Positions 30,307 to 50,009 of a DNA stretch of 64,000 bases are shown here, piece after piece; position 1 is the first letter of the stretch; each line of letters begins with the position of its first letter. A program made the translations under genes and the position numbers. A model generated the notes under the pieces. The model saw only the letters and a program-made list of their open reading frames with translations. It had not been told where the DNA came from and made no database searches. The stretch is from Sphaerolaimus hirsutus (lineage: Eukaryota; Nematoda; Chromadorea; Monhysterida; Sphaerolaimidae), in the NCBI GenBank assembly GCA_964036195.1, contig OZ038452.1, positions 23,385,785 to 23,449,784 on the forward strand, read 5' to 3'.

Positions 30307-33019
30307 ATGTGGTAGAATTTTGGCTTCTGAAGTCGATTTCGCAATTACCTATATGGGTTAAGTGACTAGAAAAGTGGTAAGTGGTAAGTAAAGTTGCGTG
30401 GTAATTCAAGTACCCAATTCAAGTAGATAACTGCGTAAAATGTCAGGTAAAATAAAGTTTCGAATGTTAAAATGCTTGTCACTTTTTTTCATCAGTTGAC
30501 CTACCACTTTTCTTGTCATTTGTACACCACATTAAATGGTTGCGAAAACGTTTCATTTTACATAAAAGTGTACGTTTACTCGGATAGTGTATAATAATAC
30601 GTTTAGGTAATATTTCTTCCAAAAAATTACTGATAGGTACTCTGCTTTTCTATATTTTATCCGAGGACCGAGGACGGAAAACGTATTCAGTTAGAAAGAT
30701 TTTACTTTGCGTTTTCAGTTTTTGGCACTGATTAATCTGAAAAAAACTTTACGGTAAAAATAACTTTCTACTGTTTGAAATATTCAGCACTTCAAAGGCC
30801 TCTATTGTCAAGTTGCAGAAGTGACCCCAGTCTTACATTCTTGCAAAAAAAATATTTCACACCCCCGCCCCCAGTTTCAATGAACAATCAACAGACAGGG
30901 CAAGATTTATTGTCCTTCAATGGTATGATCGAATAAAATTTCTATGTGCCCCTTTGGGGGATACGGAACAGACAATAGCGTATTTGGTGAGTAAATGGGG
31001 GTACTGTTGACGCCAAAAAGTTGCACGAGTTAATAATAGCTTACTGTATTTTTGTAAAAGAATAGGTACCGTATTTCCTCGAATCACCCCCATGGGTTTC
31101 TTTTTCAGAGTGGAAATTTTGTGGGGGGGGGGCGGTAAACGAAGGGGGGTTATAATTTCGCCAGACATTTTTTGAAATCCCAGTATTACGTTGTTGTTTG
31201 TAACGTACACATAAGTACCTACCGTATTACTTCGAAATACCCCCATGGAGGTTTATTATTTCGCCAGCAACATTTGAGGGGGGTTAATTCGGGGTGGGGG
31301 GTTATTCGATGGGTTTTTTATTATTATTTCGTCAGAAATTTGCGTAAGGATCGTAGTGTGAGCAAAAGTGGGTGTCAAAAATTGTAAAATTTCAAAAATT
31401 TTAAGCGTAAATGTATATGTAGTACACTTAATGAATTTATGTAGAGGGTTGTTTACACTTCCGAGCTTACAATAATTTAAACATTTCAGTTCTACTTCGA
31501 CGTTGGTTTTGGGCGATTCGGTGGGCGAACAATGTGGCGTTGACGTTTTCGGCTACGTCGCTGCGCTACGTCGGCAACGTGGCAACGTGCATTTCCGTTT
31601 TTCCGGTGCCCCATTGTGTTATGTGTGTCTTCTTTTGGCCAAGGGAAGGATTGGAGGTATTGAGGATCTGACACAAAGTTGACGCTGTGATGTAAATAGT
31701 TGTTTTTATTTGTTTAGAATATTTTTTTAATTAGGTAGTTTTTTTTTTTAGAAAGTGAGACAAGTGAGTTGGCAACAATTTTAATTGTGACAGTTTAATT
31801 TAAAAGTATTTTTTCTATTCCTACTAGCGGTTTGGATTGCATAACAAAGTTTCAGTTATTTTCTCTAAGTAAAAAGAGTGACGCTGCGGTTACGTGTCGT
31901 AGTGCGTGAATGGTCAGTGATAACTGAGGGCACATAGGTTGAATTTTGACTAACTTTCGCTGCATTCTTTTGAATTGCAGGCCGTGGCTATTGATCTAGT
32001 ATGTATTGTGCATTGCTGCATTTCCGGATTGGGAAACAAAAGTTAATTTACACGCGATTTTACAAAGGTACACTGATTATAGAGGTGCGATGATGATTGG
32101 TGTTGAAAATGAGAGGTAATTAAAAGAATCGAGTCTAACTCGACAGGCATGATCGCATGTCTAAATGCCTACTCCCTTGGCTTGTTGTGAGAACAGCCCA
32201 GTCCGCCGATCTCATCGAAACAAGCACCCATACAGTGACAAGTGTACCTATTTTTGAGTGAATTGAGCAGTTCGGTATTTTCGGGGTGTGGTTTTTGCAC
32301 AGTGCGTATGGGATCAGAAAGCCGTGGCTGAAAAATTAACATTCTGGTAGCAGAGTGAGTGGTGTAGCAGCGGGAGTGGTCATTTTCGTGATAAGTGCCT
32401 TCGGTAGTTAATGGCTGTTGCGTTTCGGCATGTGGCAGTGGATTCACTTGAGTTTGTTTTGTTTTTGTTTTTATTTTAAACTTCAAAAAGTCATGCAATC
32501 TAAACATGCATTTAAGCTACAAAGATTGAAATTTATAAACTTTCAAGTTGCCAATCATTTGCGTTCGTATTTCTGTTAAGCGTTATACCGACTTCATATT
32601 CATTTTAACTTTAGGTTTGGTAGGGAATAGGTAAAACTCGAGTATGTTAATTTTTATTTGATTTTACGTTTGCAACTTCGCTATTTTTTTTATCTACCTA
32701 ATCCTAGATTGAATTTTTTTGTATTTTCCTTTCCCCTAGAAAACTGATAACTTGACATTTGGATATTTAGGAATTTATGCAAATTTCGTGGTTGATCTTT
32801 ATTATACAAAGAGATGAAATAATAAGCCGCTTGTTTTTCCTGTTTTTTCCCCGAATATTTTGATAAGTGTAAAGGTGATCTGATTTGAGTGCGTATTTAT
32901 TTTATCACTCTGATAGAATTTCCGCTAAGAGTCTTTAAAACGGTACCGTAATTCATTTTTTCCTTGACAGTCAGTGTGAAAATTAATTTCGTTCGCCTTA
33001 CCGGTATCCTAATCTTATC

Positions 33020-33226
33020 ATGGATTATCCCGCTTACGACATTTTTTCGTTGTGCATTAATAATACGTGTGCTTCTTACGCTTTGGATATCAACGTCATT
33101 TTCGTTTATTATACGCTCTTTTTGCTGATGGGATTACTGTTCGCGTGTTTATTTGTTTCGCTAATTGCTGTGTGTTTCCCCGTTCGTGGAGGTGGTTTTG
33201 GGATTTCGGTAGAGTTCGCTGAGTAA
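33020..33226 (+). CDS. 68-aa single-pass membrane ORF in U3 of the LTR
   Basis: ATG at 33020. Short polar head (MDYPAYDIFSLCINNTCAS), then one long hydrophobic stretch from about residue 25 to 52 (FVYYTLFLLMGLLFACLFVS core), then a short Gly-rich tail. Present identically in both LTRs. It lies upstream of the LTR start site, so it would be in the 3' end of element RNA. May be chance; no family recognised. Confidence 0.3.
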   Translation: MDYPAYDIFSLCINNTCASYALDINVIFVYYTLFLLMGLLFACLFVSLIAVCFPVRGGGFGISVEFAE

Positions 33227-33547
33227 AATTTGAATCGCCCGCCATTTTTTTCGCGCTAAAACAAGTTTTTACAGTATCTCGTGTGTGTTTTTCCTGTTCT
33301 TTTTATTCTTGTCGCATTCGTTCATTTTCTCATTTTCTATTTTTGTACTCGCTCTTGTTCCCATCCCGATTTTTGGCGCGTGAATTCTTTGTGTTTTTGT
33401 GTAGTTGATCGACGTATCCTGTAAACTGACGCCGTGAATAATTTTAGGTATGCCCGTTTTAAAATTCTGTGTGTCTGTAAAGTCGTTTGTAAGCATGCTT
33501 CTCGTGGTATGTGGAAGTGTTGTCTGGACTTGGCTTATGTTGTTGCG

Positions 33548-33588
33548 TATAAAAGCGTACCGTAATTTAGAGTAGGGGTCGATTCAGT
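33548..33588 (+). promoter_or_regulatory. LTR core promoter: TATAAAAG and TCAGT initiator
   Basis: TATAAAAG at 33548-33555 and TCAGT at 33584-33588 (start A at 33586), the arthropod initiator consensus. The spacing of 38 bp from TATA start to the initiator A is slightly long. The duplicate is at 48859-48899. Confidence 0.65.
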
Positions 33589-33717
33589 CGAAATTGCTTC
33601 GGTTTCATTTTCTTGGAGTTTTTTCGAAGGTTTTGTGCCGCTGGTTAGAAACTCGCTCTCAGTGTGTTCCCTGTGTTCTATCTAAATGTGTGAATTCTGA
33701 GTCTAAAAATCGCCTAA

Positions 33718-33723
33718 AATAAA
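33718..33723 (+). promoter_or_regulatory. LTR polyadenylation signal AATAAA
   Basis: AATAAA about 130 bp after the predicted start site. In the 3' LTR (49029-49034) it would terminate element transcripts, giving an R region of roughly 150 bp. Confidence 0.6.
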
Positions 33724-34016
33724 ATCTCTTCTAAAAACTTCGGACCCCTTGGTGTAAATTAGACATTCAACTAATCGCTGGTGCGTTGATAAAGACGCCA
33801 TTCGCTAAAAAGCTAACTTAATTGACGTAGCGTACACCTGTGATATTCACTTCGGTGAATTCACCATTGTGCGTTGCGAATTCAATCGGTAGTCGCTTTT
33901 CCGTTGCCTTACTTTGTCGCTCATCCAACGAGTAGGTGTGAGATCGGTAAAACTTGGCAGTTTGCCATAGTGGAATTTGGTTGAGTAAAAAGTAGCCGGT
34001 GAAAATTCATGACAAC

Positions 34017-34029
34017 TGGTAGCAGCGAG
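34017..34029 (+). promoter_or_regulatory. Primer-binding site candidate
   Basis: TGGTAGCAGCGAG starts 2 bp after the LTR, as expected for a tRNA 3'-CCA primer. The first nine bases fit the CUGCUACCA end typical of initiator Met tRNA; the next four do not. Primer identity is therefore tentative. Confidence 0.65.
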
Positions 34030-34444
34030 TGGTTTGTTTAATATTCCCAGTGAGTTCAGGCGACTGATCACCGTTTGACAATCGCTGGTGAGAACAAACG
34101 AACCACCGCCCGGCTGGAGGAACGGAAGGCTACCCGATCGACGCAACCGATAAGCACGGATATTTTTGTTTTGGGACGTGAAACTGACGAAATTATTAGT
34201 GGGCAAAAAAGGGAAAAGCGGAAAAGTAAGAAAAAATCGAAATTGGTTCAGTTCAGTACGGACGCGCACTGTTCTGAACCGGGAACCGCTGAGTTGAGTG
34301 ACGAACCTAACGACTTTGACGTCAACTGCTGGGTGGACGCGGAAGGACCGGTCCCTGAAAGAGGTGCGGAGGAGTCATTCCCGACCTTTGAGCAAGGCAA
34401 GCCAAGTGCGGGTGCGGAGGTGCCATTCCCGACCGTAGGGCAAA

Positions 34445-34450
34445 GTAAGT
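34445..34450 (+). promoter_or_regulatory. Candidate splice donor GTAAGT in leader
   Basis: CAAA|GTAAGT upstream of the gag ATG is a strong donor match. It could feed a spliced mRNA for the distal helicase ORF, as retroviruses do for env. A weaker donor CTG|GTGAGA is at 34088. The acceptor is not identified with confidence. Confidence 0.35.
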
Positions 34451-34539
34451 TAGGGCACCGAAGCGCGAGTGCCGGGTACCGAAGCGCGAGTACCCAGTCG
34501 TCGAGTGAGTGTGTGTTTTTCCGGTATTCTACCTTGAGT

Positions 34540-37500
34540 ATGGCGCATGCGAGCGGTAGTGGTGTGAACACGGGTCCCGATGTGGTGCAATTGTTGATTC
34601 AAGCGAAAAATTTGACTTTGAATCAAATTAATTCGTCGATAGTGGGGAATTCGGTTCAGGGGTCAGAATGGAACCTTAGTCAGGTTGTGACTCAAACGGT
34701 GAGTATTGCCGCTTATTTGTATAATCAGCGACCCATGAGTTCTTTGGAAAATGGGAACATGAGTGATAATGACGAAAAATTAGTGTCATTAGTAAAGTTA
34801 GGTGTTGACTGCTATAATTTGCGAAATGATGTGAGTCAAATTGCGGACGCGATTAATGCATTTGCCGAGTATATTCATTTAGAAAAGCCTGACATGCAAG
34901 CGATTAATTCTATAATTAGCGCTGTTTCTAATTCGGGAGGGTGCTCTACCGCTACCACACCACCTATACCTGCTGTGAGTATGATTGCTACTAGTAGGGA
35001 GGGTTATGCTGCTGCCATGACCGCGCTTACTGGACAGGTGATACCATTTAAGGGGCGCGCTGATGATAAATTTGCTGATTGGCGTAAAAATTGGGACGCA
35101 GTTTGTGAGGCGTTGCAAATTCCGACGGATGAGCGAAAATCGCTGCTTCCGGTTTATTTGCGTGACAGCGCGCAATCGATTTACATGTCGCATAAGAGTG
35201 AATTGATCAATTTGGATTATGAGGAGTTCATGGATGCTTTGGAACGTTATTATACTAACCCCATTTCGGAGCATCATGCGCAAAGGGAAGTAATTAGTAG
35301 TGAGCAGGGCGAAGATGAAGATGTGTTAAATTGGTCAGTGCGGCTGGAGAAGATTATAAAACGCGCTTTTCCGAAACTTTCAAAACTTGAACGCGAAAAG
35401 ATGGCAGTGGCGAAATTTGTTAGTGGATTGTATCCTGATATTCGTAGGAATGTATCTATTACTGCTGGGGCTAAGTTTCAAGATGTAGTTAATAATGCGC
35501 GCACACAAGAAAGTTTTCTGGAAATTGATAAGGACAAAGTGGGTGGTAAGAAAAAGTCAAAATCCAACGCTGAATTAGTTTCAGAAGCCACCAATTCGGT
35601 AATCGAGCGAATTTTTGCTTTAGGGGGTGCGGGAGCTTTCGGAAATTCCCCGCCCGTTCCGGCGGCGGCGGAAAATCCAAAGTTTGAGGAACAGCGAGTG
35701 AAATTGGAAGAACTTTCTAGGCAGTTAGAGGATAAGGATAAGCGTTTAGTTGACTTGGAAAAGCAATTGATAGGTAACAATGCTGCGAAACCAGTTTCCA
35801 AATTTAGGCCGCGTAAATTTGATGAGGGCTGTTATGAATGTGGGGCAGATGATCACTTTCGCTCTGATTGTCCTAAATTGACAGAAGAGGAAAGAGCGCG
35901 TTTTAGAAATTTTCGGCGCGGCCCGTCGCAACGGCCAATGAATAACTTTAGAGGTCCAGCGAACATGATGCGCTCTGCACAGCAACCTGTATATTCCATG
36001 CAAGCGGCGCCTTACCTGTATTATCCCCCTCCCGCGCAAGTGTCAACTACTGGTTGGTCTCCAGTGCAACAAGTTCAATCATCGCAAATGGCCATTGCGG
36101 CCCCTCCGTCAACTGAATTGACTGCGTTAAATCCGACGCGCGTGTCTGCGAACTCAGTGAATCATGCACGCAGCGTGCAAGAAAGTAAGGAATATGTGCG
36201 CATGATTAGGGTTTTACCAGGTCTTGAAAGTTCGGATGAGGAAGCAGAGGATCCATGCAATCCGCCTGAAATAACGCCGCAAGAACATCAATTCATGCTC
36301 GAAAGAGAGGCTTGGATTATGCCTTGGGTTTATGCGCGTTCGTTAGATAGCATGATATTTCGAACTAAGTGGTGGGCTCAATTGCAACACATGGGTTTGC
36401 AGGGGTTAAATATTAGCGGGTTTTGTGAGCATGCTGATGAGCATCCGCATGACGACCCTGAGGACACGTTGACGTATGTTAAGTTAGCAGCGCTGTTAGA
36501 ATTGACCATGCATACGTTTAGGTGTGAACCGCCGGACATTAGTTTGTCGCGAACGTCATCTGACTCTGAATTGTATGTGTTGTCCGATTATTGTGAAGCG
36601 AGCGTGCCAACTTTGTACCGAACGTGGTCGGAACCGAGTATGTTGCCCAGTGTGTTGAACCGTGTGTTTTTCCTGTGCTGTCTATTTACGTTTTTTGCAA
36701 GTGTTGACGCCCTGGGTGTTCCAAGTGGTGGCGTTGTTAAGAAAAAAGGAGTGTCAGATGAGTGGATTTTGACCGTGCGAAATTTTCTTGAGGGATTTAT
36801 CGCTGGAATGTGCACTTCCGTGTTTTTGAGATATATTCTGCCCGCTTTGTGTGAACTGGTGTTGTATTTAGTGTTCACAGTGTGTGATTGGATAAAAATG
36901 AGAGTGTTGCGGGTTCAATTAAATCGCATGTTAGCGATAGAAAATAGGCGCAATCCTGCAAGGGGTGCGACCCCCGTGACACCGCCGCAAAAGTTAAATC
37001 CAGTTAGCGCTGACAGTTCAGGGTATGGCGCCGATATTGAAGAAACGCCAGTGAGTAGATTTAAGCGTTTGCCGCCGCTGCGCGTTCCTAAAGGTTCTGC
37101 CGTCATGGAAAAGGTGAATGTAGTCACGCTGACCAGTGAAGAAATTGCGAACATCAAAAGTATTACGGCTAAGCGTAAAGAACTCGTGCCAATTTACTAT
37201 AGTCCGTCGATTACGGTAGAAATTGAGGGGAATGAATACAAAAGGTGTCTGTTGGACACAGGTGCGATGAGGTCATTGTGCAGCCCGCTGGTGTTGGCTA
37301 GGCATCGAAATAATTGCATAGCGTTTGATGAGGTCACGCCTGTGGGGGGATTGCAAAGCGCGTCTCAATGCAAATTGCAAATTGAGGGTCAGTTGGAACT
37401 TCAAGTGATGATTACCGGGAAAGCATTTTCTATTGTGTTTCAGGTGATTAGCGGGTTGTCGGACGATATTTTATTGGGCGCTGATGTGTTGAGGCATATG

Positions 37501-38466
37501 GTTATTGATATGCCTGCGCGTGAGTTGCGAATTGAGAGTGGTGATGCGCGTAAAAAGTTGATTGTGCCTTTTGACAACCCGTCGCCTGTAGTGCAAGAAC
37601 GGCATATTTATGCAGTTGTGACTGAACCGACTGAAATTAAGCCGCGGCATGAAACGATAATTAGTGCGAAATTATCTGAACCAATTGATGAATTGACGTT
37701 TGCGATTGAGCCTTTGAACGAATTTCATGTGAAAACGGGTGTGTTTGCAGCTAATGCTGTTTATGAAAGCGCGAGTGAATTATTTCCGGTGAGGTGTGTT
37801 AATGTGACTGAGGTGCCAGTAAAGTTGCAGGTGGGCCAGAAAATTGCCATCGTAGAGCCAGTGGAGTGTGTTTTACAAGTGCGTCGAGGTGATCCACCTG
37901 CTGAGTGGGTGCGAGAGTGCCGCGAGCGTGATATGAGTTTTACCGATACTATACTTGAAGCTAGTGAGGAAAAAGTACCAACGAAGGGCACTGTACCTTC
38001 AAAAGCGGCGAATACGACTATGAAAGTGGTTTGTGCCGATGGGAGGGAAATGGATTTTGAAGTACCGGTTGAATTGGACGAAATTAAGCGCCAGCAATTA
38101 AAAGAGTTAATTTTGACTCATCAGGATGCTTTCGCCAGGGATAAGTATGATTTGGGATACAGTGAATTGGTTGATTATCGACTTCAGTTGACTAGTAAAA
38201 TTCCGGTCGCGTGTCGAATGTATAGGTTGAGTTTGGATGACCAGCAGTATTTAGAAAAGCATTTAAGTTGCCTGCTCGAGCATGACGTCATTGAACACAG
38301 TACGAGTCCGTACTGCGCGCCGACATTAGTTGTTACTAAGCCGGATGGTGCCAAGCGCATGGTGATAGATTATCGACGATTAAATGCAGTAGTTCACGCT
38401 CCCCAATTTCCGCTGCCCAGATTAGACGATACGATAGAGTCATTGCACAGTTGCAAATATTTTTAG
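34540..38466 (+). CDS. Gag-protease-RT polyprotein, N-terminal part (stops inside RT)
   Basis: 1,308 aa from the first in-frame ATG at 34540 (MAHASGSGVNTGPDVVQL). Order: capsid-like region with a Ty3-type segment RYYTNPISEHHAQREV; coiled-coil; CCHC knuckle C431-X2-C434-X4-H439-X4-C444; a 460-residue linker with hydrophobic segments at about 709-725 and 750-787; aspartic protease with DTG at 906-908; RT fingers with YCAPTLVVTKPDGAKRMVID. The frame ends at TAG 38464-38466 within a T5 run in the middle of RT, and the RT continues in the +1 frame. Gag and Pol share one frame with no stop between them. Confidence 0.93.
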   Translation: MAHASGSGVNTGPDVVQLLIQAKNLTLNQINSSIVGNSVQGSEWNLSQVVTQTVSIAAYLYNQRPMSSLENGNMSDNDEKLVSLVKLGVDCYNLRNDVSQIADAINAFAEYIHLEKPDMQAINSIISAVSNSGGCSTATTPPIPAVSMIATSREGYAAAMTALTGQVIPFKGRADDKFADWRKNWDAVCEALQIPTDERKSLLPVYLRDSAQSIYMSHKSELINLDYEEFMDALERYYTNPISEHHAQREVISSEQGEDEDVLNWSVRLEKIIKRAFPKLSKLEREKMAVAKFVSGLYPDIRRNVSITAGAKFQDVVNNARTQESFLEIDKDKVGGKKKSKSNAELVSEATNSVIERIFALGGAGAFGNSPPVPAAAENPKFEEQRVKLEELSRQLEDKDKRLVDLEKQLIGNNAAKPVSKFRPRKFDEGCYECGADDHFRSDCPKLTEEERARFRNFRRGPSQRPMNNFRGPANMMRSAQQPVYSMQAAPYLYYPPPAQVSTTGWSPVQQVQSSQMAIAAPPSTELTALNPTRVSANSVNHARSVQESKEYVRMIRVLPGLESSDEEAEDPCNPPEITPQEHQFMLEREAWIMPWVYARSLDSMIFRTKWWAQLQHMGLQGLNISGFCEHADEHPHDDPEDTLTYVKLAALLELTMHTFRCEPPDISLSRTSSDSELYVLSDYCEASVPTLYRTWSEPSMLPSVLNRVFFLCCLFTFFASVDALGVPSGGVVKKKGVSDEWILTVRNFLEGFIAGMCTSVFLRYILPALCELVLYLVFTVCDWIKMRVLRVQLNRMLAIENRRNPARGATPVTPPQKLNPVSADSSGYGADIEETPVSRFKRLPPLRVPKGSAVMEKVNVVTLTSEEIANIKSITAKRKELVPIYYSPSITVEIEGNEYKRCLLDTGAMRSLCSPLVLARHRNNCIAFDEVTPVGGLQSASQCKLQIEGQLELQVMITGKAFSIVFQVISGLSDDILLGADVLRHMVIDMPARELRIESGDARKKLIVPFDNPSPVVQERHIYAVVTEPTEIKPRHETIISAKLSEPIDELTFAIEPLNEFHVKTGVFAANAVYESASELFPVRCVNVTEVPVKLQVGQKIAIVEPVECVLQVRRGDPPAEWVRECRERDMSFTDTILEASEEKVPTKGTVPSKAANTTMKVVCADGREMDFEVPVELDEIKRQQLKELILTHQDAFARDKYDLGYSELVDYRLQLTSKIPVACRMYRLSLDDQQYLEKHLSCLLEHDVIEHSTSPYCAPTLVVTKPDGAKRMVIDYRRLNAVVHAPQFPLPRLDDTIESLHSCKYF

Positions 38467-41269
38467 CAGTGTCGATATCAATCAAGCGTTTTACAACATT
38501 GCGCTGCATCCGGATGATAGACATATTACGTCGTTTCGTAATTGTTTTGGTCAATTTCAGATGAAACGCTTGCCGATGGGATTAAAGTGTTCCCCGGCTT
38601 TAGCGCAGCGCTGTTTTGAAGTTACAATGGCTGGATTATTGCATCGAAATGTGTTGGTATATATAGATGATTTGCTCATTTACAGTAGGTCATGGGAAGA
38701 TCATTTGAGTGATATAAGTCAGGTTTTGTCGCGTTTGATAAGTAGCAGTTTTAAAATACACCCAAAAAAGTGTTTTTTCGCGCGCACAACTGCTGTTAAA
38801 TTCCTGGGTTATATGGTAGGGCGTGAAGGGATTTGTATACCGGATGACAAGCGAAAGTATTTGAGTGATTGGCCGCTACCTGTATGTGTGCGTGAAGTTA
38901 AAGCGTTCCTAGGCGCTGTTGGGTTTTTCCGGAGATTAATTCATAAATGTGCTGAATATGCCGCTCCTTTGTCTAATTTAACTCGAACAAAAACTGAATT
39001 AGGAACTGAAAAGTATAGCGGAAGTACTCCCGTAGATTTAAATGCGAACCCCGCCGCTTTGGAAGCTTTTAATAAGTTGAAAGTGATGGTGGCTGAAAGT
39101 CCCTGTATACAGTATCCTGATCCCAGTAAACCGTTCATAATTATTACCGATGCTTCTAAAGTTGCATTAGCTGGCATTTTAGTACAACGCGCTGAACCTG
39201 CCGCCGCTTTGCATGCGTGTTCATTTTATAGTCGAAAACTTTCTGAAGCGCAATCCCGATGGCCTGCAATTACGCAAGAAGCATGTGCTATTTTTGAGAG
39301 CATACGCAATTGGCATTGTTATTTAGCGGGCCGGCCGTTTGAAGTTTGGACTGATGCGAAAAGTATTTCATGGGTAAAAAATCCAAATTTGGAAACCCAT
39401 CCCCATACGGGTTTGCACCGATTTGCGCTTGCTATTCAATCATATCAAGTTACTTTTAAGCATTTGCGTGGGAAAAGTAACGAATTGGCTGATGCTTTGT
39501 CGCGCCGGCGTGATGCACCCGTTGAATTTGATGAGCGTGTTAATTTGGACGAAGCGTTTGAAGAATATGCATTTGATATACCTGTTGATGAATTGGCGAG
39601 AATTTTGACTGAGGAAATGGCGTTGTTAACATCTGAGGAACATTTGGCTTGTCAAGCGGTAGCTAAGGCCATGGCGCGATTGGCTGCTGCTCAAAATTGG
39701 CTGAAACATGCGAAAATGAAGTCTTTGGAACCGTCAGTTACGGTAGCTACTGAACTGCCAGTGGCAAGCGTTGCTACTGTGCGGGCGCCGCATCCAATGA
39801 CAATGCGTGTGCGAAGTAAAAAGAAGGTGGAGTCCAATTCTGAAAATGCTTTGAAATCGCCGCCCAAAAGTGACGATGCGCCTAAATTAATGGCTGGTGG
39901 CCGCCGTTCTGTTCAATTAATTAAGAAACCGGAAAAACTCGATGCTTTACCTCCTCCCATTACTCCAATTGAAGAGTTGTCGCGTTTGCAAAAAGAAGAA
40001 CCGTATATAATTACGATTCGTCGCATGTGCGAGGAATCTACTTTGCGTAGGGCCTCACCGTTTTTCATTGATCAATTTGATGTGATCAGGCGTGATGCAG
40101 ACCCGTCAATATTAGTGGGTGAAAGGAAATACGACCCTGCGTGCATTCCCCAGTCACTAGTTGTCACTGTGTTAGAATTGGCTCATAATCATCCCACTGC
40201 TGGACATTTAGGTGTGATGAAAACGTTTGAAAGATTGCGTGAATTTGCTTGGTTTACAAATATGCGTCCAGAATGCGCTAGATGGGTTTCTACTTGCCCT
40301 TCGTGCAACGCGAAGAAAGGATTGCGCCGCTCAATGAAAACTCAAATTCAGAGCCGGAAAATCGCTAAGTTTCCTGGTGATTTTATTGCGATTGATGCAG
40401 TAGGGCCATTGCCAATTACCGAAAAAAGGAATGTGCATGTATTGGTATTTGTGGATCAATGTACGCGTTTTGGTTTAGCAGTGCCTGTTCCTAATTTGAA
40501 GCAAGATACTGTGGCTATTGCGTTTTTGCAACATGTGTTACCGATTTTTGGTGTGCCCGCTGTAATCTTATCCGACAATGCACCAAGCTTCATTGGCGGC
40601 ATTTTTGCGGAATTGCTGCGTTATCTAAATACAGTGCAGCATAAGTGTTTCAATTATACGCCAAAGGGGAATGGTTTGGTTGAGCGTAGGAATGGCGTCT
40701 TAATGGAAATAATTTCACATTATGTGAATGGCTCGCATTCGGATTGGGACAAACACTTAGGCGCCGCTGTCTATGCGTATAATACGTCTATGCACCCCTC
40801 TATGAAAGTGACACCATATGCGTTGCTATTTGGATCAAATTCTCCGTCACTTTGGGAGCGTATGATCGAGCCGACGGGAAATGGCACCGATAAGACCGAT
40901 AAGCCGATGGCGTACAGTCCCTTTGTGTCAAATTTAGACGCGCGACTTTCGGACGTCCGCACGGCCGCGCATTCGGCTTTACAGCGCGCGCAAGAAAAAG
41001 AGTGTTTTTATGCAAATCGCAGTGCGCGCCGCTTGAATTTGAAGCCCGGTCAATCAGTTCGTGTTTATTCGCCCCGAATTCTTCGAAAGTTAGGTCGCGT
41101 TAAGAAATTCACGCATCATTATATTGGCCCGTATGAATGTTTAGATTATGTGCATCCCATTGTGACCGTGTTTAATAGGTTGTCTAAGAAAACTTATACC
41201 GTTCATGCTGATCGCGTTAAACTGACAAATGAGCCAGTTAATCCCACTTATTCGCAGATTTTCGGTTAA
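38465..41269 (+). CDS. RT palm, RNase H and integrase (displaced frame)
   Basis: The frame is open from 38465, one base out of register with the upstream ORF; the first ATG is 38561. RT active site YIDD at 38660-38671. RNase H region begins with IIITDASK and includes a TQEACAIFE segment. Integrase: zinc finger with HNH...GHLG and CPSC, then D612, D672, E708 (D-59-D-35-E; numbering from 38561), and a GPY-type C-terminal module (HHYIGPYECLD). A roughly 110-residue Ala/Lys/Ser-rich linker separates RNase H and integrase. Without the base displacement this would be one Gag-Pol. Confidence 0.93.
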   Translation, partial: SSVDINQAFYNIALHPDDRHITSFRNCFGQFQMKRLPMGLKCSPALAQRCFEVTMAGLLHRNVLVYIDDLLIYSRSWEDHLSDISQVLSRLISSSFKIHPKKCFFARTTAVKFLGYMVGREGICIPDDKRKYLSDWPLPVCVREVKAFLGAVGFFRRLIHKCAEYAAPLSNLTRTKTELGTEKYSGSTPVDLNANPAALEAFNKLKVMVAESPCIQYPDPSKPFIIITDASKVALAGILVQRAEPAAALHACSFYSRKLSEAQSRWPAITQEACAIFESIRNWHCYLAGRPFEVWTDAKSISWVKNPNLETHPHTGLHRFALAIQSYQVTFKHLRGKSNELADALSRRRDAPVEFDERVNLDEAFEEYAFDIPVDELARILTEEMALLTSEEHLACQAVAKAMARLAAAQNWLKHAKMKSLEPSVTVATELPVASVATVRAPHPMTMRVRSKKKVESNSENALKSPPKSDDAPKLMAGGRRSVQLIKKPEKLDALPPPITPIEELSRLQKEEPYIITIRRMCEESTLRRASPFFIDQFDVIRRDADPSILVGERKYDPACIPQSLVVTVLELAHNHPTAGHLGVMKTFERLREFAWFTNMRPECARWVSTCPSCNAKKGLRRSMKTQIQSRKIAKFPGDFIAIDAVGPLPITEKRNVHVLVFVDQCTRFGLAVPVPNLKQDTVAIAFLQHVLPIFGVPAVILSDNAPSFIGGIFAELLRYLNTVQHKCFNYTPKGNGLVERRNGVLMEIISHYVNGSHSDWDKHLGAAVYAYNTSMHPSMKVTPYALLFGSNSPSLWERMIEPTGNGTDKTDKPMAYSPFVSNLDARLSDVRTAAHSALQRAQEKECFYANRSARRLNLKPGQSVRVYSPRILRKLGRVKKFTHHYIGPYECLDYVHPIVTVFNRLSKKTYTVHADRVKLTNEPVNPTYSQIFG

Positions 41270-41792
41270 AAAACCCTGAGATTTTCCGCTCTTCAACCTA
41301 AAGTGCTTCAAGTTAATTATTCCGTTCGAAAATTCAATTAAAATTTATTTTTGGATTATTCGCGTTTAATTCTGACCGTCAATTCGTGGTGAGTTCGGGG
41401 TTGCAAATTTGGTATTTTTGATTGTGCGCAAGGTAATTTTGAGGTAAAAAGTTGTTCTTTATGTAAAAGGTAAAGCGCGAAAATTTTATCGGTGTTATTA
41501 ATTGTTCGTTTCTAATTATCGCCGCAAGTTTAATTCGTTAGTTGTTCATACCATCGCATTTATTTCGTTCTAAATTTGTTCTTTAATTTCATTCTCATTT
41601 TCGCCCGTTTCGCAACAAAATAAAAATTATTTTTGGCGCAATACGTTCAACGTAGTGCGTTGAAAATAATTCGCAACTTTTCGATTAGGGTGTCGCTCAG
41701 ACCTTCGTGCATTTCGGTGCCGACATTCTGGGTGGCGCATTTTAAGTAGCAATAAGTTGTGTTTTCCGGTGCTCTACTTTGAAGTGTGAAAT
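41270..41792 (+). other. Spacer between pol and helicase ORFs
   Basis: 523 bp with stops in all forward frames and no ORF. It may hold the acceptor for a spliced helicase mRNA, or internal promoter signals. AG dinucleotides just upstream of the ATG (for example CTACTTTGAAG at 41773-41783) are candidates only. Confidence 0.5.
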
Positions 41793-44700
41793 ATGACTAG
41801 TTCGGGTGGCGTACCTATGGGTGGGTATGGAGCGAGTTCCAGTTCGTACCGTGGCGGGCGCATAGCCAAGGCCCCGCTCAAGTCGTGGACTTCTCATGGA
41901 AAACAGGGCGGTGACACTATTCCGCCGCTGCCCTACAATCCTCCTCGAAACGCCCGATCGACTTGTCCTGAATTTGTCATCAACCAGAAGTTGTCGGGAA
42001 TAGTGGATCGAGTTCACGTCGGTAACGAGCAGCGTCCTACCAGTTATCAATGCCACATTCGTTTCGACGGCGATGCGCAGGCGCTTTTGGAAAGTTATCC
42101 GGAGTGGTCGGAAGCGGAAACGGCTTATCCCTTTTTCTCCTATTCGGTCAACAAAGCGGAGCGCGCTCGTGAGCGGTCGGTGCAGAAAATTTTGAGGGAA
42201 TATCGCGAGACTAACGAAGCTTACGACATGTTTTTGCCGCTTGTCCGCCACGGCATGCATTTTGTCGCGACTGGTATCAGTAGGGTTAGCGCCAATCCGA
42301 AATATTGGGAATTGCGAGGCGTCACAATTATGAAAAATGACGCTCAAATGCCATTGTTTTTGGGCCGCCCTGTTGTCATTGTTTCGCAAGGACAGGTTGA
42401 CCTCTCCGTCGATGAGCCAGTGTCGGAAGTTTCACAGAGAGGACAGGAAAATCGCGAAGGATATCATCCTTATCCGGCCAAGTGGAGATATTTGCGTTTG
42501 AGGGCAGCGTTCACCCCTTCGCGGTACATCAGTGCACCCCCCTTCAAAGGCGCCGACGAGCGGGATCCGGGCCCTGAAAAGTTGATTTTTGCGCACAGCG
42601 AAAATGTCATGGAAAGTGACATACACCCGCACGCCGGACAATTAGGTGTGGCGCATGTAGAGTATCACGCTTTTGATGACGCCGGCAAGGTTAACAACTT
42701 TTATTGGGGTCATGCGTATGGCGTGCGTATTTTTTCGGCGCGGCAAATTGAGGCTGGTATGGAGTGGAAGGGCGAAATGAATAGAAATTGTCTCACTTCT
42801 CAGCTGCAGCTCCGTTCCATCTTTTTGGCCGCTGCTAACGTGTGTCACGAAGCGCATTTGCGATACACTGCGACTAGGGCGAAAGCGGTGCGCGCGCAGG
42901 TGACTTGGCAAAATGGGCCGCGGGGATTAATTGCGATAATTAGGTGGGAGCGCGTGCATTTGAATCCAGCTGCTGCGATGCGCGACACGGCCGAGTGGCA
43001 CAGGAATAAGGCGCAGGGCTACATGTTGAATTTTACTTCGCCCATGTCGTCGCTACAAATCGTCGAAGCTGATCCCCGGGGGGAAGAGCGTGCTCTGACT
43101 GGCCGCCCGCAAATAAATTTACGCACGGTCAGCGCCGACATCACTGCCGAGGCGGTGCAGCTGGTCGCCAAACCGGATGTGTTGGTGCCGCAGGCGCTGT
43201 CGCCGCATTTGCTGCCTAATTGCGATTACATGGTGCGCGGTTCCGCTTTGACGCCTAGCTACAATGGCCGCATGGAAATTTTGGAGCGGTTGTGCATAAT
43301 GGGGCCTAGTGGTTACCGGCCAACCGAGAGCAACACCGGAATGCTCGCTGTGGAAGACCAGGTCAAAATGGCGGTAGTGCTGCACAAGCAGTTGAACCAA
43401 GTTGAGACTGATTGGCAGCGCACGCTCGAAAAAATTGAGTCTGACGGGTTGTATGCCGAGGTGCGCAGAGGCACATGCGAAGATTTATTGCAAGCGCATC
43501 AGGGTGATTTTCGGCCGCAGGAGGGGCAGGGGCGTGTGATTGCGTCAGTTATCAAGTCTGTGCGAAAAACTGCGCCGCTATTGTTGATGTGTGATTCACC
43601 GTTCGGTTCCGGTAAAACGACTGTGCAAAGTCAGTGTGCGTACGCGGTTGCGTTCAAATTTACTGAGAAAAATGACCCGCCGAACCCGCTGAAGAGGGAA
43701 TTGCCCTCTGATGCAAACAAAAATGCGCTTTACCACTCCACAATGATTACTTGCAGTGTGAATTCGGCCGCTGATGAGTCTGCTAGACGATCGTTGCAAA
43801 GTTTGGCGGACATCGGTTTGCCTACTTTGGAAAGGGTCGTGGAAGTTTTGCTGCGCAGTAGGGAGACGTGGACTGCGATGGATAACAAACCGAATTTCGA
43901 AACACCTGGCTATGCGCGTTTCTGTCAGGTGCGCGCTGCTTTCGCGATTCGCGTGCTGAGTCCATTGTTGGAAGTTGACGATCGCTACGTCGATATGACG
44001 CTCCAGCAATTGCCGCTGCTGAATTTGATCGCGCAAAACATGCCCATGCATGTGATCCGATTGAATGACCACTGGCTAACTGCTTATGAACGCTTTACCG
44101 CTCAACGCCATATTTGTGACACTTTGAACGAGATCATCGCGAACAATCAGCACCCCGCCGACATTTTCGAAGCCATTCGGTCGCAGTTGCCTTTGGTTCG
44201 TTTGTCCATCGACGAAGACGACGAGGATGAATTGGTGCCACTGGACGATGGTCAAGAGGAGGGCGTGCAGGCGTGGGGGGCCGCGGCTGGCTTTGTCGAT
44301 GACAACCAGGTGTGGGGCAAAATTTACAAGCGCGAAATGCGACGCCTCGTTAGGGTGGCTACTAGGTTGCATAAGGTGGTGTTGAATGTGCTGCAGCCAG
44401 GCCAAGTCCATGTGACCTTGGATTCATCGCGCGATAAGCGACTGCAAGTTTTGAAATATGCCGCGGTATTTGTGGACGAGGCGTCTCTGGCGGATGAAAC
44501 TGCCATTTTTGGCGCTGTTTCAAACGCTCGACTCCCCCACAATGGCTTGGTGCTTTTGTTTGGCGATAGCAAGCAGTTGACCCGAATGGTCAGGCCGCAT
44601 TCATGGATTGCCCCGATCCTGAAACCTGATCCATCGTTGATCAACAGGTTGGTGGAAGGTGTGCTGTGCCCAATTCTGAAGCTCGAGACTGTTTTCCGCG

Positions 44701-46349
44701 GCCACGACGCGCTGATTCAAGCGAATTCTGTCGCTGCGTACGATGGCCAATTGCGCGCGTTTCACGATTACAGTCAGTGGCGAGATACTTTGCCGCTCAT
44801 GGCTTGCGGTGCAGATCAGGTGCCTTTGTCTTCTGTGATCGTGCACATGGGTTTCGAAACGAGCGAGGGCGTGTCTGTTAAAAATTTGACGGAGGTAGAC
44901 ATTGTGGTGCGCGCTGTGCAGCAATTTGTCATTTTGGCGCTGAACAGCGAGGGCGAGAATGTCGTTCCGTGGAGTGATTTAGAAAGCGCCGATTCGCTGC
45001 TGGTTGTGTGTTTCTATTCAGCGCAGGAGAGAAGAGTGATTGACGAATTGGTGCGATTGAGCTGGGCGCAGTTGTTAGGGGGTGAGGGGTTCCCTGGCTA
45101 TTTAGCGACCCCAGCATTTTGGCGGAAAAAAGTCATCACTGCTGATCGAGCGCAAGCTCGTGAAGCGCACGTGGTGATTGTGTCATGTGTGAGGGGTAGC
45201 GCGCCGCGCGTGGACGCTACTGGACACCCGTCGCAGCGCGAGCGCGATGTGATGGACAGAATTGGCTTTTTGGCGATGCCGGAGCGGTGCAACGTGGCCA
45301 CGTCTCGCGCCAAAACGGCCAGAGTCGTGATCATGAACGCCGCTACTGTGCTGCATTCTGAATTTTTCTGGCGCTTTGTGGCGGTGGAATTAGGAAAGGG
45401 ACGCGTTTTTGCGTACCACGAGCGACATTTGTGGGAAAGTGACCCGTTGGCTAGGTTTCTGGGCCACTGGAGAAGTGCCCCGGTCGATCTGCAAGAACCC
45501 GCTCCGCCCGTGCAAGAAGAAGAAGAAAATGAGGTTCCGCCGTCGCCGGAAGAAGTTCAGGAGGTGGATGTGAGCGAACAGCGAGCGTCCCCTCAGCCAG
45601 ACGCTGACATCGTTCCCGCTCCCGATTCCCCAGACGTGCAAATGTTGCCGCCGGAAGAGCAGGAGGAGGAGTCAGAGAAAGTTCAGCCGCGCGCGGATGA
45701 AAAAGCGAGTTGTTCTCGGTCTCGGCGTCGGTATCGCGGTCGTCGTCGCTCTCCCTCGTCGAGTTCTTCCTCTTCCTCTAGTTCTTCGTCGGGTTCGTCA
45801 AAATCGGGATCGAGTGAGACCGATTCGGCCTCGGAGTCTGAACACGCGCCGCCCGTACCGGCACACAAACAGAAAACGCACCAGGAGGAGGAAGTGATGG
45901 AGGTGGAACAGGAGCAAAGTGAACAAGGTGCTCAACAGCAGGAACCGGCAATGGAAGGTCAACGGCAAGAGCAAGAACCAGAGCCAGATACTGAAGAGGC
46001 CAATAATGCAATTATTGGAGAAAAATTGGATGAGTTAATTCAAATGGCGGGCGAGTTGAACACCGAGTTGGACGCTGAGCGACAGCAACAGTCCATGAGC
46101 CCAGACCGGCAGATGCTAAGACAAATGGACGCCATCCAGGAGGAGGCCAATGAATCTGCTGAGCCCATGCAGGAAGATGAGCAGGAGCAGGAGCAGCCTG
46201 AGGAAGTGGCCGCACAGCAGCTGCAGCAACCTGTTCAGGTTGTTGTAGTTGGCGCGTCACCGCCACCACAAGAGGAACAGAGTCCGCCCCCGCCAGTGAC
46301 TCCAACTTTGGCAGGTTTGGAGCCAGAGGAGGAGATGGAAGCGGAGTAA
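41793..46349 (+). CDS. UPF1-like superfamily 1 helicase, retrotransposon-encoded (1,518 aa)
   Basis: Starts at a true ATG (MTSSGGVPMGG). Residues 1-590 are an N-terminal region I do not recognise. Helicase motifs: Walker A variant DSPFGSGKTT (GSGKT 605-609), Walker B VDEAS (DE 895-896), motif III GDSKQL (924-929), motif IV ETVFRG (965-970), motif V region TADRAQAREAHVVIVSC (1116-1132) matching the UPF1 QGRE...ILSC segment, and motif VI NVATSRAK (1167-1174). This is the SF1B UPF1/SMG2/MOV10-like arrangement. The 285-residue gap between motifs I and II is longer than in UPF1 and includes a very acidic patch. Residues 1230-1518 are disordered: acidic, then Arg/Ser-rich with a run of serines, then Gln/Glu-rich. 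Catalytic motifs look intact and the frame is uninterrupted. Likely made from a separate (spliced) mRNA. Alternatives such as Helitron Rep-helicase or viral envelope are not supported. Confidence 0.93.
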   Translation: MTSSGGVPMGGYGASSSSYRGGRIAKAPLKSWTSHGKQGGDTIPPLPYNPPRNARSTCPEFVINQKLSGIVDRVHVGNEQRPTSYQCHIRFDGDAQALLESYPEWSEAETAYPFFSYSVNKAERARERSVQKILREYRETNEAYDMFLPLVRHGMHFVATGISRVSANPKYWELRGVTIMKNDAQMPLFLGRPVVIVSQGQVDLSVDEPVSEVSQRGQENREGYHPYPAKWRYLRLRAAFTPSRYISAPPFKGADERDPGPEKLIFAHSENVMESDIHPHAGQLGVAHVEYHAFDDAGKVNNFYWGHAYGVRIFSARQIEAGMEWKGEMNRNCLTSQLQLRSIFLAAANVCHEAHLRYTATRAKAVRAQVTWQNGPRGLIAIIRWERVHLNPAAAMRDTAEWHRNKAQGYMLNFTSPMSSLQIVEADPRGEERALTGRPQINLRTVSADITAEAVQLVAKPDVLVPQALSPHLLPNCDYMVRGSALTPSYNGRMEILERLCIMGPSGYRPTESNTGMLAVEDQVKMAVVLHKQLNQVETDWQRTLEKIESDGLYAEVRRGTCEDLLQAHQGDFRPQEGQGRVIASVIKSVRKTAPLLLMCDSPFGSGKTTVQSQCAYAVAFKFTEKNDPPNPLKRELPSDANKNALYHSTMITCSVNSAADESARRSLQSLADIGLPTLERVVEVLLRSRETWTAMDNKPNFETPGYARFCQVRAAFAIRVLSPLLEVDDRYVDMTLQQLPLLNLIAQNMPMHVIRLNDHWLTAYERFTAQRHICDTLNEIIANNQHPADIFEAIRSQLPLVRLSIDEDDEDELVPLDDGQEEGVQAWGAAAGFVDDNQVWGKIYKREMRRLVRVATRLHKVVLNVLQPGQVHVTLDSSRDKRLQVLKYAAVFVDEASLADETAIFGAVSNARLPHNGLVLLFGDSKQLTRMVRPHSWIAPILKPDPSLINRLVEGVLCPILKLETVFRGHDALIQANSVAAYDGQLRAFHDYSQWRDTLPLMACGADQVPLSSVIVHMGFETSEGVSVKNLTEVDIVVRAVQQFVILALNSEGENVVPWSDLESADSLLVVCFYSAQERRVIDELVRLSWAQLLGGEGFPGYLATPAFWRKKVITADRAQAREAHVVIVSCVRGSAPRVDATGHPSQRERDVMDRIGFLAMPERCNVATSRAKTARVVIMNAATVLHSEFFWRFVAVELGKGRVFAYHERHLWESDPLARFLGHWRSAPVDLQEPAPPVQEEEENEVPPSPEEVQEVDVSEQRASPQPDADIVPAPDSPDVQMLPPEEQEEESEKVQPRADEKASCSRSRRRYRGRRRSPSSSSSSSSSSSSGSSKSGSSETDSASESEHAPPVPAHKQKTHQEEEVMEVEQEQSEQGAQQQEPAMEGQRQEQEPEPDTEEANNAIIGEKLDELIQMAGELNTELDAERQQQSMSPDRQMLRQMDAIQEEANESAEPMQEDEQEQEQPEEVAAQQLQQPVQVVVVGASPPPQEEQSPPPPVTPTLAGLEPEEEMEAE

Positions 46350-46667
46350 TGGTAATTTAGGTGTACAGGAAGTTTTTTTTTGTTTTGGTTGTTTTTGTAT
46401 TTAGTCGTTTTTGTTAGAGCGAACGTTTTACCAGTAAAATTGAGCTTTTGTTGAATTGAAAATTGAATTTTCATTGAGTTTTACCGGTTCAAAAGTTTTT
46501 CTTTGTGTTTTCAACAAAGTGTGGAAGAATGCGTAATGGTTGTCAACAAATTTAAAATTGGTTTAAAATAGTTCTTAAAAAACGGGAATTTATTTCAATT
46601 CGTTTCTTTCATAGTTTTGCTGCGTTTCGATTTTAGCCGGGAGGTAAAATGTATGGCTGGTGGAGTT
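46350..46667 (+). other. 3' untranslated segment before the 3' LTR
   Basis: Mostly A/T-rich, no ORF. The expected polypurine tract should abut 46668. The nearest purine-rich pieces are GGGAGGTAAAA (46639-46649) and GGTGGAG (46660-46666). Neither is a classic tract. Confidence 0.5.
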
Positions 46668-49325
46668 TGTGAGCAAAAGTGGGTGTCAAAAATTGTAAAA
46701 TTTCAAAAATTTTAAGCGTAAATGTATATGTAGTACACTTAATGAATTTATGTAGAGGGTTGTTTACACTTCCGAGCTTACAATAATTTAAACATTTCAG
46801 TTCTACTTCGACGTTGGTTTTGGGCGATTCGGTGGGCGAACAATGTGGCGTTGACGTTTTCGGCTACGTCGCTGCGCTACGTCGGCAACGTGGCAACGTG
46901 CATTTCCGTTTTTCCGGTGCCCCATTGTGTTATGTGTGTCTTCTTTTGGCCAAGGGAAGGATTGGAGGTATTGAGGATCTGACACAAAGTTGACGCTGTG
47001 ATGTAAATAGTTGTTTTTATTTGTTTAGAATATTTTTTTAATTAGGTAGTTTTTTTTTTTAGAAAGTGAGACAAGTGAGTTGGCAACAATTTTAATTGTG
47101 ACAGTTTAATTTAAAAGTATTTTTTCTATTCCTACTAGCGGTTTGGATTGCATAACAAAGTTTCAGTTATTTTCTCTAAGTAAAAAGAGTGACGCTGCGG
47201 TTACGTGTCGTAGTGCGTGAATGGTCAGTGATAACTGAGGGCACATAGGTTGAATTTTGACTAACTTTCGCTGCATTCTTTTGAATTGCAGGCCGTGGCT
47301 ATTGATCTAGTATGTATTGTGCATTGCTGCATTTCCGGATTGGGAAACAAAAGTTAATTTACACGCGATTTTACAAAGGTACACTGATTATAGAGGTGCG
47401 ATGATGATTGGTGTTGAAAATGAGAGGTAATTAAAAGAATCGAGTCTAACTCGACAGGCATGATTGCATGTCTAAATGCCTACTCCCTTGGCTTGTTGTG
47501 AGAACAGCCCAGTCCGCCGATCTCATCGAAACAAGCACCCATACAGTGACAAGTGTACCTATTTTTGAGTGAATTGAGCAGTTCGGTATTTTCGGGGTGT
47601 GGTTTTTGCACAGTGCGTATGGGATCAGAAAGCCGTGGCTGAAAAATTAACATTCTGGTAGCAGAGTGAGTGGTGTAGCAGCGGGAGTGGTCATTTTCGT
47701 GATAAGTGCCTTCGGTAGTTAATGGCTGTTGCGTTTCGGCATGTGGCAGTGGATTCACTTGAGTTTGTTTTGTTTTTGTTTTTATTTTAAACTTCAAAAA
47801 GTCATGCAATCTAAACATGCATTTAAGCTACAAAGATTGAAATTTATAAACTTTCAAGTTGCCAATCATTTGCGTTCGTATTTCTGTTAAGCGTTATACC
47901 GACTTCATATTCATTTTAACTTTAGGTTTGGTAGGGAATAGGTAAAACTCGAGTATGTTAATTTTTATTTGATTTTACGTTTGCAACTTCGCTATTTTTT
48001 TTATCTACCTAATCCTAGATTGAATTTTTTTGTATTTTCCTTTCCCCTAGAAAACTGATAACTTGACATTTGGATATTTAGGAATTTATGCAAATTTCGT
48101 GGTTGATCTTTATTATACAAAGAGATGAAATAATAAGCCGCTTGTTTTTCCTGTTTTTTCCCCGAATATTTTGATAAGTGTAAAGGTGATCTGATTTGAG
48201 TGCGTATTTATTTTATCACTCTGATAGAATTTCCGCTAAGAGTCTTTAAAACGGTACCGTAATTCATTTTTTCCTTGACAGTCAGTGTGAAAATTAATTT
48301 CGTTCGCCTTACCGGTATCCTAATCTTATCATGGATTATCCCGCTTACGACATTTTTTCGTTGTGCATTAATAATACGTGTGCTTCTTACGCTTTGGATA
48401 TCAACGTCATTTTCGTTTATTATACGCTCTTTTTGCTGATGGGATTACTGTTCGCGTGTTTATTTGTTTCGCTAATTGCTGTGTGTTTCCCCGTTCGTGG
48501 AGGTGGTTTTGGGATTTCGGTAGAGTTCGCTGAGTAAAATTTGAATCGCCCGCCATTTTTTTCGCGCTAAAACAAGTTTTTACAGTATCTCGTGTGTGTT
48601 TTTCCTGTTCTTTTTATTCTTGTCGCATTCGTTCATTTTCTCATTTTCTATTTTTGTACTCGCTCTTGTTCCCATCCCGATTTTTGGCGCGTGAATTCTT
48701 TGTGTTTTTGTGTAGTTGATCGACGTATCCTGTAAACTGACGCCGTGAATAATTTTAGGTATGCCCGTTTTAAAATTCCGTGTGTCTGTAAAGTCGTTTG
48801 TAAGCATGCTTCTCGTGGTATGTGGAAGTGTTGTCTGGACTTGGCTTATGTTGTTGCGTATAAAAGCGTACCGTAATTTAGAGTAGGGGTCGATTCAGTC
48901 GAAATTGCTTCGGTTTCATTTTCTTGGAGTTTTTTCGAAGGTTTTGTGCCGCTGGTTAGAAACTCGCTCTCAGTGTGTTCCCTGTGTTCTATCTAAATGT
49001 GTGAATTCTGAGTCTAAAAATCGCCTAAAATAAAATCTCTTCTAAAAACTTCGGACCCCTTGGTGTAAATTAGACATTCAACTAATCGCTGGTGCGTTGA
49101 TAAAGACGCCATTCGCTAAAAAGCTAACTTAATTGACGTAGCGTACACCTGTGATATTCACTTCAGTGAATTCACCATTGTGCGTTGCGAATTCAATCGG
49201 TAGTCGCTTTTCCGTTGCCTTACTTTGTCGCTCATCCAACGAGTAGGTGTGAGATCGGTAAAACTTGGCAGTTTGCCATAGTGGAATTTGGTTGAGTAAA
49301 AAGTAGCCGGTGAAAATTCATGACA
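46668..49325 (+). repeat. 3' LTR (2,658 bp)
   Basis: Same length as the 5' LTR, with three substitutions seen. TATA at 48859-48866 and AATAAA at 49029-49034. Followed by the target duplication GTAG. Confidence 0.97.
48331..48537 (+). CDS. 68-aa membrane ORF, 3' LTR copy
   Basis: Identical to 33020-33226. In this copy it would be part of the 3' end of genomic element RNA. Confidence 0.3.
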   Translation: MDYPAYDIFSLCINNTCASYALDINVIFVYYTLFLLMGLLFACLFVSLIAVCFPVRGGGFGISVEFAE

Positions 49326-50009
49326 GTAGTAAGAAGTAGGCATTTGCGTACCCAGAACAGGTAATAAATGTGCCCAAACGGGGGTATATTAGGACATCAA
49401 AATGTAGATAGCTACACAAACTAGTCTATGTGTAGCTGCAATGCTAATTAGCAATAACATACATCATGTACATTGCATACATGACGTATTTATTACGTAC
49501 AAGACGTACATCATTCCGAAGGGGGGTATTTCGAGGGGGGTATTATTTCCCCAGCCCATTTTGAGGGGGGATAATTCGAGGTAATACAGTATGTACGCGT
49601 AGACGGTATAAACCCTGTTTTAACATAACACAGTCATGGTTTTTAACGTGTTCTGCGTTTCAAAAACCGTAGCTTTCGTCATTTACGTTCTCTATACACT
49701 AAATTTCGGAGGGGGAGTATTTCGAAGTTCGGGGTTATAAATTCATAGTGTCCATTTTGAGGGAGGTATTTCGAGCTAGGGGAGCTATTTCGACGAAAAC
49801 GGTAATCGTTTTACGGAATTTTGAGGTCCCTATCTCTTTGAATAGATCCACCCTTGAACAAACCCCCTGGATAACCTAAATCGACCAAGTGTGGCAATTC
49901 ACTCCACCTACAATAGTGATGTAGACGGTGCAATTAGGTAATTTTAGATTATAACACGGAATTACGGAATATAGTCCCCCGCAATGCAACCCTATGCGTT
50001 TCGATAGAT

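Follow-up and report, generated by a model that had tools for sequence, protein, structure and literature searches.

An SF1B helicase gene between integrase and 3' LTR in Ty3/gypsy-type retrotransposons

The 64-kb window analysed here, by which we mean the whole stretch of DNA under study, contains one complete LTR element, about 18 kb long, with a long helicase reading frame in the place occupied by env in env-bearing Ty3/gypsy elements. This raises the question of whether the helicase is a gene of the element, kept for some function, or whether it came to lie there by accident and was copied along. If it is a gene of the element, it must also be asked what an LTR retrotransposon might do with it.

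The element and its helicase reading frame

By its LTRs, target-site duplication (TSD) and pol domain order, we classify the window element as Ty3/gypsy-type (Table 1). It has in common with Ty3/gypsy elements (Metaviridae) the LTRs, candidates for a primer-binding site and a polypurine tract, a CCHC Gag, the order PR-RT-RNase H-IN and a short TSD. The two LTRs differ at only three positions (32154, 33468 and 33854), and the insertion is therefore recent. The polypurine tract is likely contained in the motif adjoining the 3' LTR, although this motif is longer than a plain tract. ORF1, whose first Met at 34540 is the likely start of gag, ends in TAG at 38464. Its Gag match (Pfam PNMA, E 1.4e-05) is just at the cut-off, and the CCHC and protease matches are both below it, the protease (E 0.044) being in the expected place. 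The hydrophobic segments of ORF1 gave no Pfam match over cut-off. ORF2 is matched by RVT_1 (1.1e-25), RNase H (5.1e-26), H2C2 (1.3e-15) and rve (5.2e-09), so that the Pfam order reads PR, RT, RNase H, IN, with PR below cut-off. A search with pol returned gypsy-type matches; the best were about 35% identical and covered about 45% of the query, and a few were named gypsy or 17.6.

Table 1. Features of the retrotransposon, in window coordinates.
Feature	Position	Strand	Basis or content
TSD GTAG, 5' copy, 4 bp	31353..31356	.	flank comparison
5' LTR, 2658 bp, TGT...ACA	31357..34014	+	3 mismatches versus 3' LTR
Candidate primer-binding site TGGTAGCAGCGAGTGG	34017..34032	+	immediately 3' of 5' LTR
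ORF1, stop to stop	34054..38466	+	Gag (PNMA-like), CCHC, protease region, initial RT part
Hydrophobic, membrane-like segments of ORF1, CCHC-protease interval	36640..36894	+	hydropathy scan
ORF2, stop to stop	38438..41269	+	remaining RT, RNase H, integrase
UUU-UAG-C, candidate programmed +1 frameshift site in RT	38461..38467	+	conservation across copies
Pol-helicase spacer, 523 bp	41270..41792	+	one weak splice-acceptor-like site at 41687
SF1B (UPF1/SMUBP2-like) helicase ORF, 1518 aa	41793..46349	+	open from ATG; Pfam AAA_12
3' non-coding motif TTTTAGCCGGGAGGTAAAATGTATGGCTGGTGGAGTT adjoining 3' LTR	46631..46667	+	similar in other two families
3' LTR, 2658 bp	46668..49325	+	LTR-LTR comparison
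TSD GTAG, 3' copy	49326..49329	.	flank comparison

Some further features of the window may be recorded here. ARAGORN found no tRNA genes in it. Within the LTR, TGGTAGCAGAGTGAGTGG (32345-32362) forms a second primer-binding-like stretch, close to the site after the LTR. A tandem repeat, PSPGPDHPVPVP-like and open in several frames on both strands, occupies 60085-61033 and is likely a satellite. Two exon-like stretches on the minus strand (12109-12537 and 17033-17575) resemble, by eye, a PP1/calcineurin-type phosphatase. An ORF at 62079-62834 we took, also by eye, to resemble a BEL/Pao-type element protein; Pfam gave no BEL/Pao-type match for it.

The original prediction of an intact 1,518-aa helicase with SF1B motifs was borne out. 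All 1518 codons are open from the ATG, AAA_12 matches at E 4.1e-19 over profile positions 4-193 of 195, and GSGKT (aa 605), DEASL (895), GDSKQL (924), QAREAH (1121) and NVATSRAK (1167) are what we take to be motifs I, II, III, V and VI, in order, in the I-VI numbering. The protein consists of an N-terminal part, a core at about 590-1226 and an acidic tail at 1231-1518 (net charge -51). The N-terminal part (aa 1-536 in family 1, and the like part of the sister family 2 described below) has no Pfam match at E up to 5, and no known RNA-binding domain was matched there at that threshold. At E up to 0.1, Pfam matched AAA_12, with AAA_11 and AAA_30 in addition in families 2 and 3, and no viral helicase family in the helicases of any of the three families. 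PHROGs gave no match, and AlphaFold2 run on the helicase without an alignment reached a pLDDT of 33.8.

Its likeness to UPF1 and SMUBP2 lies in the core. A profile of the three families, searched against PDB, matched human UPF1 first (E 2.8e-08) and SMUBP2 second (1.7e-06), followed by a '5'-3' RNA helicase-like protein' (8ftm, 2.3e-06) and yeast NAM7 (7.6e-05), with SEN1 a weak match (0.41). The IGHMBP2 family of NCBIfam scored 34.7 bits, far under its cut-off of 348.9. The stretch from DEAS to NVATSRA aligns with UPF1, whereas motifs I and II are about 290 aa apart in the element helicase and about 145 in UPF1 in the profile alignment. In common with UPF1 and SMUBP2 (IGHMBP2) it has the AAA_12 core, to which it adds the unmatched N-terminal part and the long acidic tail. 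A CxxC pair was absent from the family-1 and family-2 helicases, the two scanned, and UPF1's Cys/His (UPF2-binding) module was not found in either. The label "UPF1-like", given when the locus was first described, thus stands for the core and not for the rest of the protein.

Two readings of the third ORF were rejected. Env-bearing Ty3/gypsy elements also have an extra ORF in this place, but here its product is an SF1B helicase in which no segment is strongly hydrophobic (maximum 19-residue hydropathy 1.51, below the 1.6 threshold), and a membrane glycoprotein was rejected on that ground. Recent capture of host UPF1 was rejected as well. The host UPF1-like exons, which match human UPF1 at E 1.2e-57, share only 26-32% identity with the element helicases over 75-138 aa, and the latter are therefore not recent copies of host UPF1. 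As a side observation, the host UPF1 core exon is encoded at two nearly alike places, C65:86011-86712 and C14:4125120-4125530, of which that on C65 may be an unplaced duplicate.

Linkage of the helicase to the element across the genome

The helicase was searched for in the window's own genome (348 Mb, 762 contigs), with 31 of 928 candidates scored. All 31, the window's included, were full-length matches, and 30 had no internal stop. Twenty of the 30 other copies, picked through their helicase match, were examined in context. The order integrase end, spacer, helicase, 3' LTR was the same in 20 of 20, with an insertion of about 430 bp separating helicase from LTR in one (L010). An exact 4-bp TSD was present in 16 of the 18 copies with both ends scorable, the remaining two matching at 3 of 4 bases, and in 19 of 19 the 5' LTR, compared over its first 130 bases, was closest to the same copy's 3' LTR, ties included. 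Together with the LTR pair and GTAG duplication of the window, these copies confirm the claim that the helicase lies inside a complete element, between integrase and 3' LTR.

Copies selected by their helicase could be expected to have one, which is why the reverse test, starting from integrase, matters. Here 150 of 2534 candidates were scored for a short integrase query and 150 of 432 for a short helicase query, so that counts are lower bounds: at least 121 family-1 integrase matches (89-100% identical) and at least 117 family-1 helicase matches (74-100% identical). Among the matches listed, 112 of 121 integrases had a helicase downstream, no more than 20 kb away and on the same strand, and in 101 cases it lay at the window's spacing of 4.2-4.5 kb; the 112 use 111 helicase matches, one being counted for two integrases. 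Nine integrases had no helicase within 20 kb and, among the same matches, 6 of 117 helicases had no integrase. Two of the nine were examined. In one (L072), the 5' part of the helicase remains, up to window position 44205. The other (L073, C4:21280900-21284400) has lost nearly the whole helicase by internal deletion while keeping integrase and LTR sequence; at 89-94% identity it is an older copy, possibly a non-autonomous derivative. An open frame of 1510-1525 aa surrounds 70 of the 117 helicase matches listed (47 were not full-length open), and the long ORF is therefore not due to chance.

Sequence comparison among copies points in the same direction. Uncorrected Nei-Gojobori counts gave pN/pS of 0.122 for the helicase (21 copies) and 0.186 for integrase (20 copies, L011 being omitted for an indel), a comparison that is only indicative, since the copies were the best-scoring by helicase and thus biased to intact ones, which pushes the helicase ratio down. 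Along the protein, the ratio was 0.108 for aa 1-250, 0.051 for 251-500, 0.228 for 501-700 (motif I), 0.141 for 701-890 and 0.081 for 891-1220 (motifs II-VI). Constraint was weakest in the acidic tail (0.255) and then in the motif I stretch. Length changes of the ORF were of whole codons in the 20 other copies, with a stop in one (L025). Pairwise distances among 20 copies correlated between helicase and integrase (r 0.79), helicase and LTR (0.90) and integrase and LTR (0.77), with 0 of 2000 shuffles for each. These sequence data, with their signs of purifying selection and of co-inheritance with integrase and LTR, give good support to the view that the helicase belongs to the element as a gene under selection. 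A selected element gene had been part of the original prediction, which is strengthened by the many independent insertions and by the divergent families described next.

Sister families, a frame change inside RT and relatives elsewhere

A search of the same genome with Pfam AAA_12 (150 of 454 candidates scored) returned two UPF1-like exons (on C65 and C14) and at least 148 frames, often 1332 aa long, which represent family 2. In the copy examined (L029), integrase lies upstream; its helicase is 40% identical to that of the window over 1220 aa and its integrase part 65%. An LTR piece of this copy occurs twice, at 100% identity over 396 bp and 15.88 kb apart, flanking the helicase, and ten further pairs of the piece were 15.4-15.9 kb apart among 40 matches listed. 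Family 2 is abundant, and the identical LTR pair suggests that it has been active very recently. Among the matches listed, 27 of 29 family-2 integrases had a helicase downstream. A third group has at least 33 helicase matches at 55-56% identity over a core piece, none within 3 kb of a family-2 match. Its one copy examined through the helicase (L071; family 2 was likewise examined through one) encodes a 1334-aa protein about 39% identical to that of family 1 and 44% to that of family 2.

The helicases of the three families are thus 39-44% identical over about 1200 aa, including the N-terminal half that has no Pfam match; between families 1 and 2, identity is 30-46% in this half and 38-54% in the core. 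All three have the helicase motifs and an acidic tail (net charge -51, -24 and -39), and their N-terminal halves are homologous. The 3' non-coding motif TAGCCnGGAGGTAAA...ATGGCTGGTGG lies directly before the LTR in all three (window, L029 and L077). The reading that best fits these comparisons is a Ty3/gypsy-type lineage in which an SF1B helicase, lying as a separate gene after integrase, was present before the three sampled families split and has been kept since.

A second peculiarity is common to the families. Gag-Pol of the window element is not one frame but changes frame within RT. At TTT TAG, frame 0 reads C K Y F stop, and the +1 frame continues RT as SSVDINQAFY. The ORF2 frame is exactly 943 aa in 80 of the 121 family-1 integrase matches listed. 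All 10 family-1 and all 10 family-2 pieces examined for it (L031-L050) retain TTT TAG C, preceded by TAC in one, and so do L030 and the sole family-3 copy examined (L076). A defect of the window copy alone was therefore rejected, the change being common to many copies and three families. UUU-UAG-C, where the two open frames overlap, is a candidate site of programmed +1 frameshifting, and is similar to antizyme-type +1 sites, which place a stop codon in the A site. To our knowledge, a frameshift inside RT is unusual. In the sections available of one study, a stop codon at the A site makes a +1 shift more effective in yeast, and Ty1-Ty4 are described as shifting near the 3' end of gag (PMC5009743), whereas the window element would do so inside RT.

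Relatives outside this genome were looked for in protein, viral and prokaryote sets. Among 5.8 billion protein sequences, neither the helicase core (7986 word-sharing candidates scored) nor a two-family alignment (7996 scored) had a match, a search in which scoring of word-sharing candidates only may miss distant relatives. A three-family alignment found no relative among 25 pattern matches in viral contigs or 38 in prokaryote genome contigs. No Ty3/gypsy element with a UPF1-like helicase was the subject of any of the open-access papers listed in the literature search. To that extent the statement that no such class had been described holds; it did not take into account the SF1 helicases of insect retroelements. 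Virus-type SF1 helicases are known from insect LINEs (PMC4686597, PMC5563155), and SF1 helicase domains fused to LTR-retrotransposon proteins from Diptera and Hymenoptera (PMC6338049), as far as the available parts of these reports go. What appears to be new is thus a separate UPF1/SMUBP2-like helicase gene in several Ty3/gypsy-type families, and not the presence of an SF1 helicase in a retroelement.

Comparison with these systems is instructive. Like the window element, the insect LINEs TRAS and Jockey encode an SF1 helicase with conserved motifs, for which silencing escape or reverse transcription has been proposed as a role, as it is here (PMC4686597, PMC5563155, in the parts available). 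According to the same excerpts, the LINE helicases are virga/tobamo-like and mostly lie within LINE proteins, whereas that of the window has a UPF1/SMUBP2-like core and its own large N-terminal part, and is a separate gene of an LTR element. Burro of planarians and Ogre of plants are, like the window element, very large gypsy-type elements with extra coding capacity; the extra domains of Burro lie mainly in one giant polyprotein in the accessible account, and the window helicase is a separate ORF (PMC6431247).

Possible roles of the helicase

The original prediction had suggested RNA stability, silencing escape or particle RNA handling as possible roles. The most likely role that we infer is one in which the helicase acts on the RNA of its element, remodelling or protecting it, and to this reading as a whole we give slightly better than even odds. 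Within this reading, we put the probability that the helicase is a selected element gene at about 0.93; RNA as its main substrate is reasonably probable, and a cofactor of the RNP or of replication, rather than a decoy, has a little less than an even chance. The protein would be translated from a reading frame of its own, probably from a spliced, subgenomic mRNA like env in env-bearing relatives, with an internal promoter or reinitiation as alternative routes; the spacer holds only one weak splice-acceptor-like site. It would bind the element's own RNA, perhaps via the unmatched N-terminal half, and spend ATP stripping proteins and structure from it. Such activity would help the RNP to assemble and a very long template to be packaged and reverse transcribed, and would blunt decay of an RNA whose frame-0 stop precedes the 3' LTR by 8.2 kb. 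The element would then do in-house what Ty1 takes from host Upf1: Ty1 cDNA is reported at 0.25 of wild type on upf1 deletion in the section available to us (PMC3522557). In the excerpt of another study, L1 retrotransposition was unaffected by UPF1 overexpression (PMC4982230), which speaks against a simple link between UPF1 and retrotransposition.

A broader version of this reading, which we offer tentatively, is that a whole Ty3/gypsy lineage internalised a UPF1-type helicase as a core gene and couples it with a +1 shift of antizyme-like kind inside RT. Because of its frame-0 stop, the genomic RNA of 15 kb would be a classic target of decay, to which the element would respond with its helicase. 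The helicase would then be to a retroelement what the UPF1-like helicases are to large RNA viruses.

Rather unlikely, although one of the two main rivals, is a role in counter-defence, with the helicase as decoy or competitor of host UPF1, MOV10/Armitage or ZNFX1 in RNA decay and small-RNA silencing, so that element RNA escapes. Retroelements are restricted by MOV10, itself a UPF1-like helicase of SF1, which also promotes the decay induced by UPF1 (PMC4982230, in part), and insect retrotransposon SF1 helicases weakly suppress RNA silencing in a plant system in the portion available of PMC6338049. The element core is UPF1/SMUBP2-like without the Cys/His module, as a decoy might be, and a separate ORF permits expression independent of particles. 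However, the catalytic motifs are kept in three families, which a passive decoy does not need, and the likeness to host UPF1 (26-32%) is low.

Less probable still is the other main rival, a function on the DNA side, in which the helicase would aid strand displacement and the making of long double-stranded cDNA that bears 2.66-kb LTRs, or else integration. The size of the element (about 18 kb) and of its LTRs and the SMUBP2/IGHMBP2-type similarity of the helicase are consistent with it, and helicases accompany large genomes in other replicons. On the other hand, the helicase is not fused to Pol, and we saw nothing that would put it in the particle. Such a helicase is also missing from the descriptions of Ogre (16-25 kb) and Burro (over 30 kb) in the accessible sections of PMC6431247.

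That one element picked up a host helicase gene, which was then copied along without function, is very improbable. The original prediction had named copies lacking the helicase, or homologues found only as single host genes, as signs of such a one-off capture. Copies of the first kind do exist as a minority (9 of 121 integrases, one true deletion, L073, among the two examined) against 112 of 121 that carry it, and the second is contradicted by homologues in two further families. With at least 117, 148 and 33 helicase matches in families 1, 2 and 3, about 40% identity among them, pN/pS of 0.12 and the motifs kept, we reject it on the three-family result. Least credible of all, and rejected too, is a nested element or assembly join having put the helicase beside the LTR element, which only the unusual gene content favours and which is contradicted by the same junctions at different loci (20 of 20), each copy's own exact TSD (16 of 18 scorable) and the agreeing divergence of helicase, integrase and LTR.

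Some host RNA helicases are needed by LTR retrotransposons, and others restrict them. In this regard, a lineage with an SF1B helicase of its own makes it possible to test what such helicases do for and against retroelements. If it is translated by +1 shifting, the frame change conserved within RT would in addition be an unusual means of setting the ratio of Gag to Pol.
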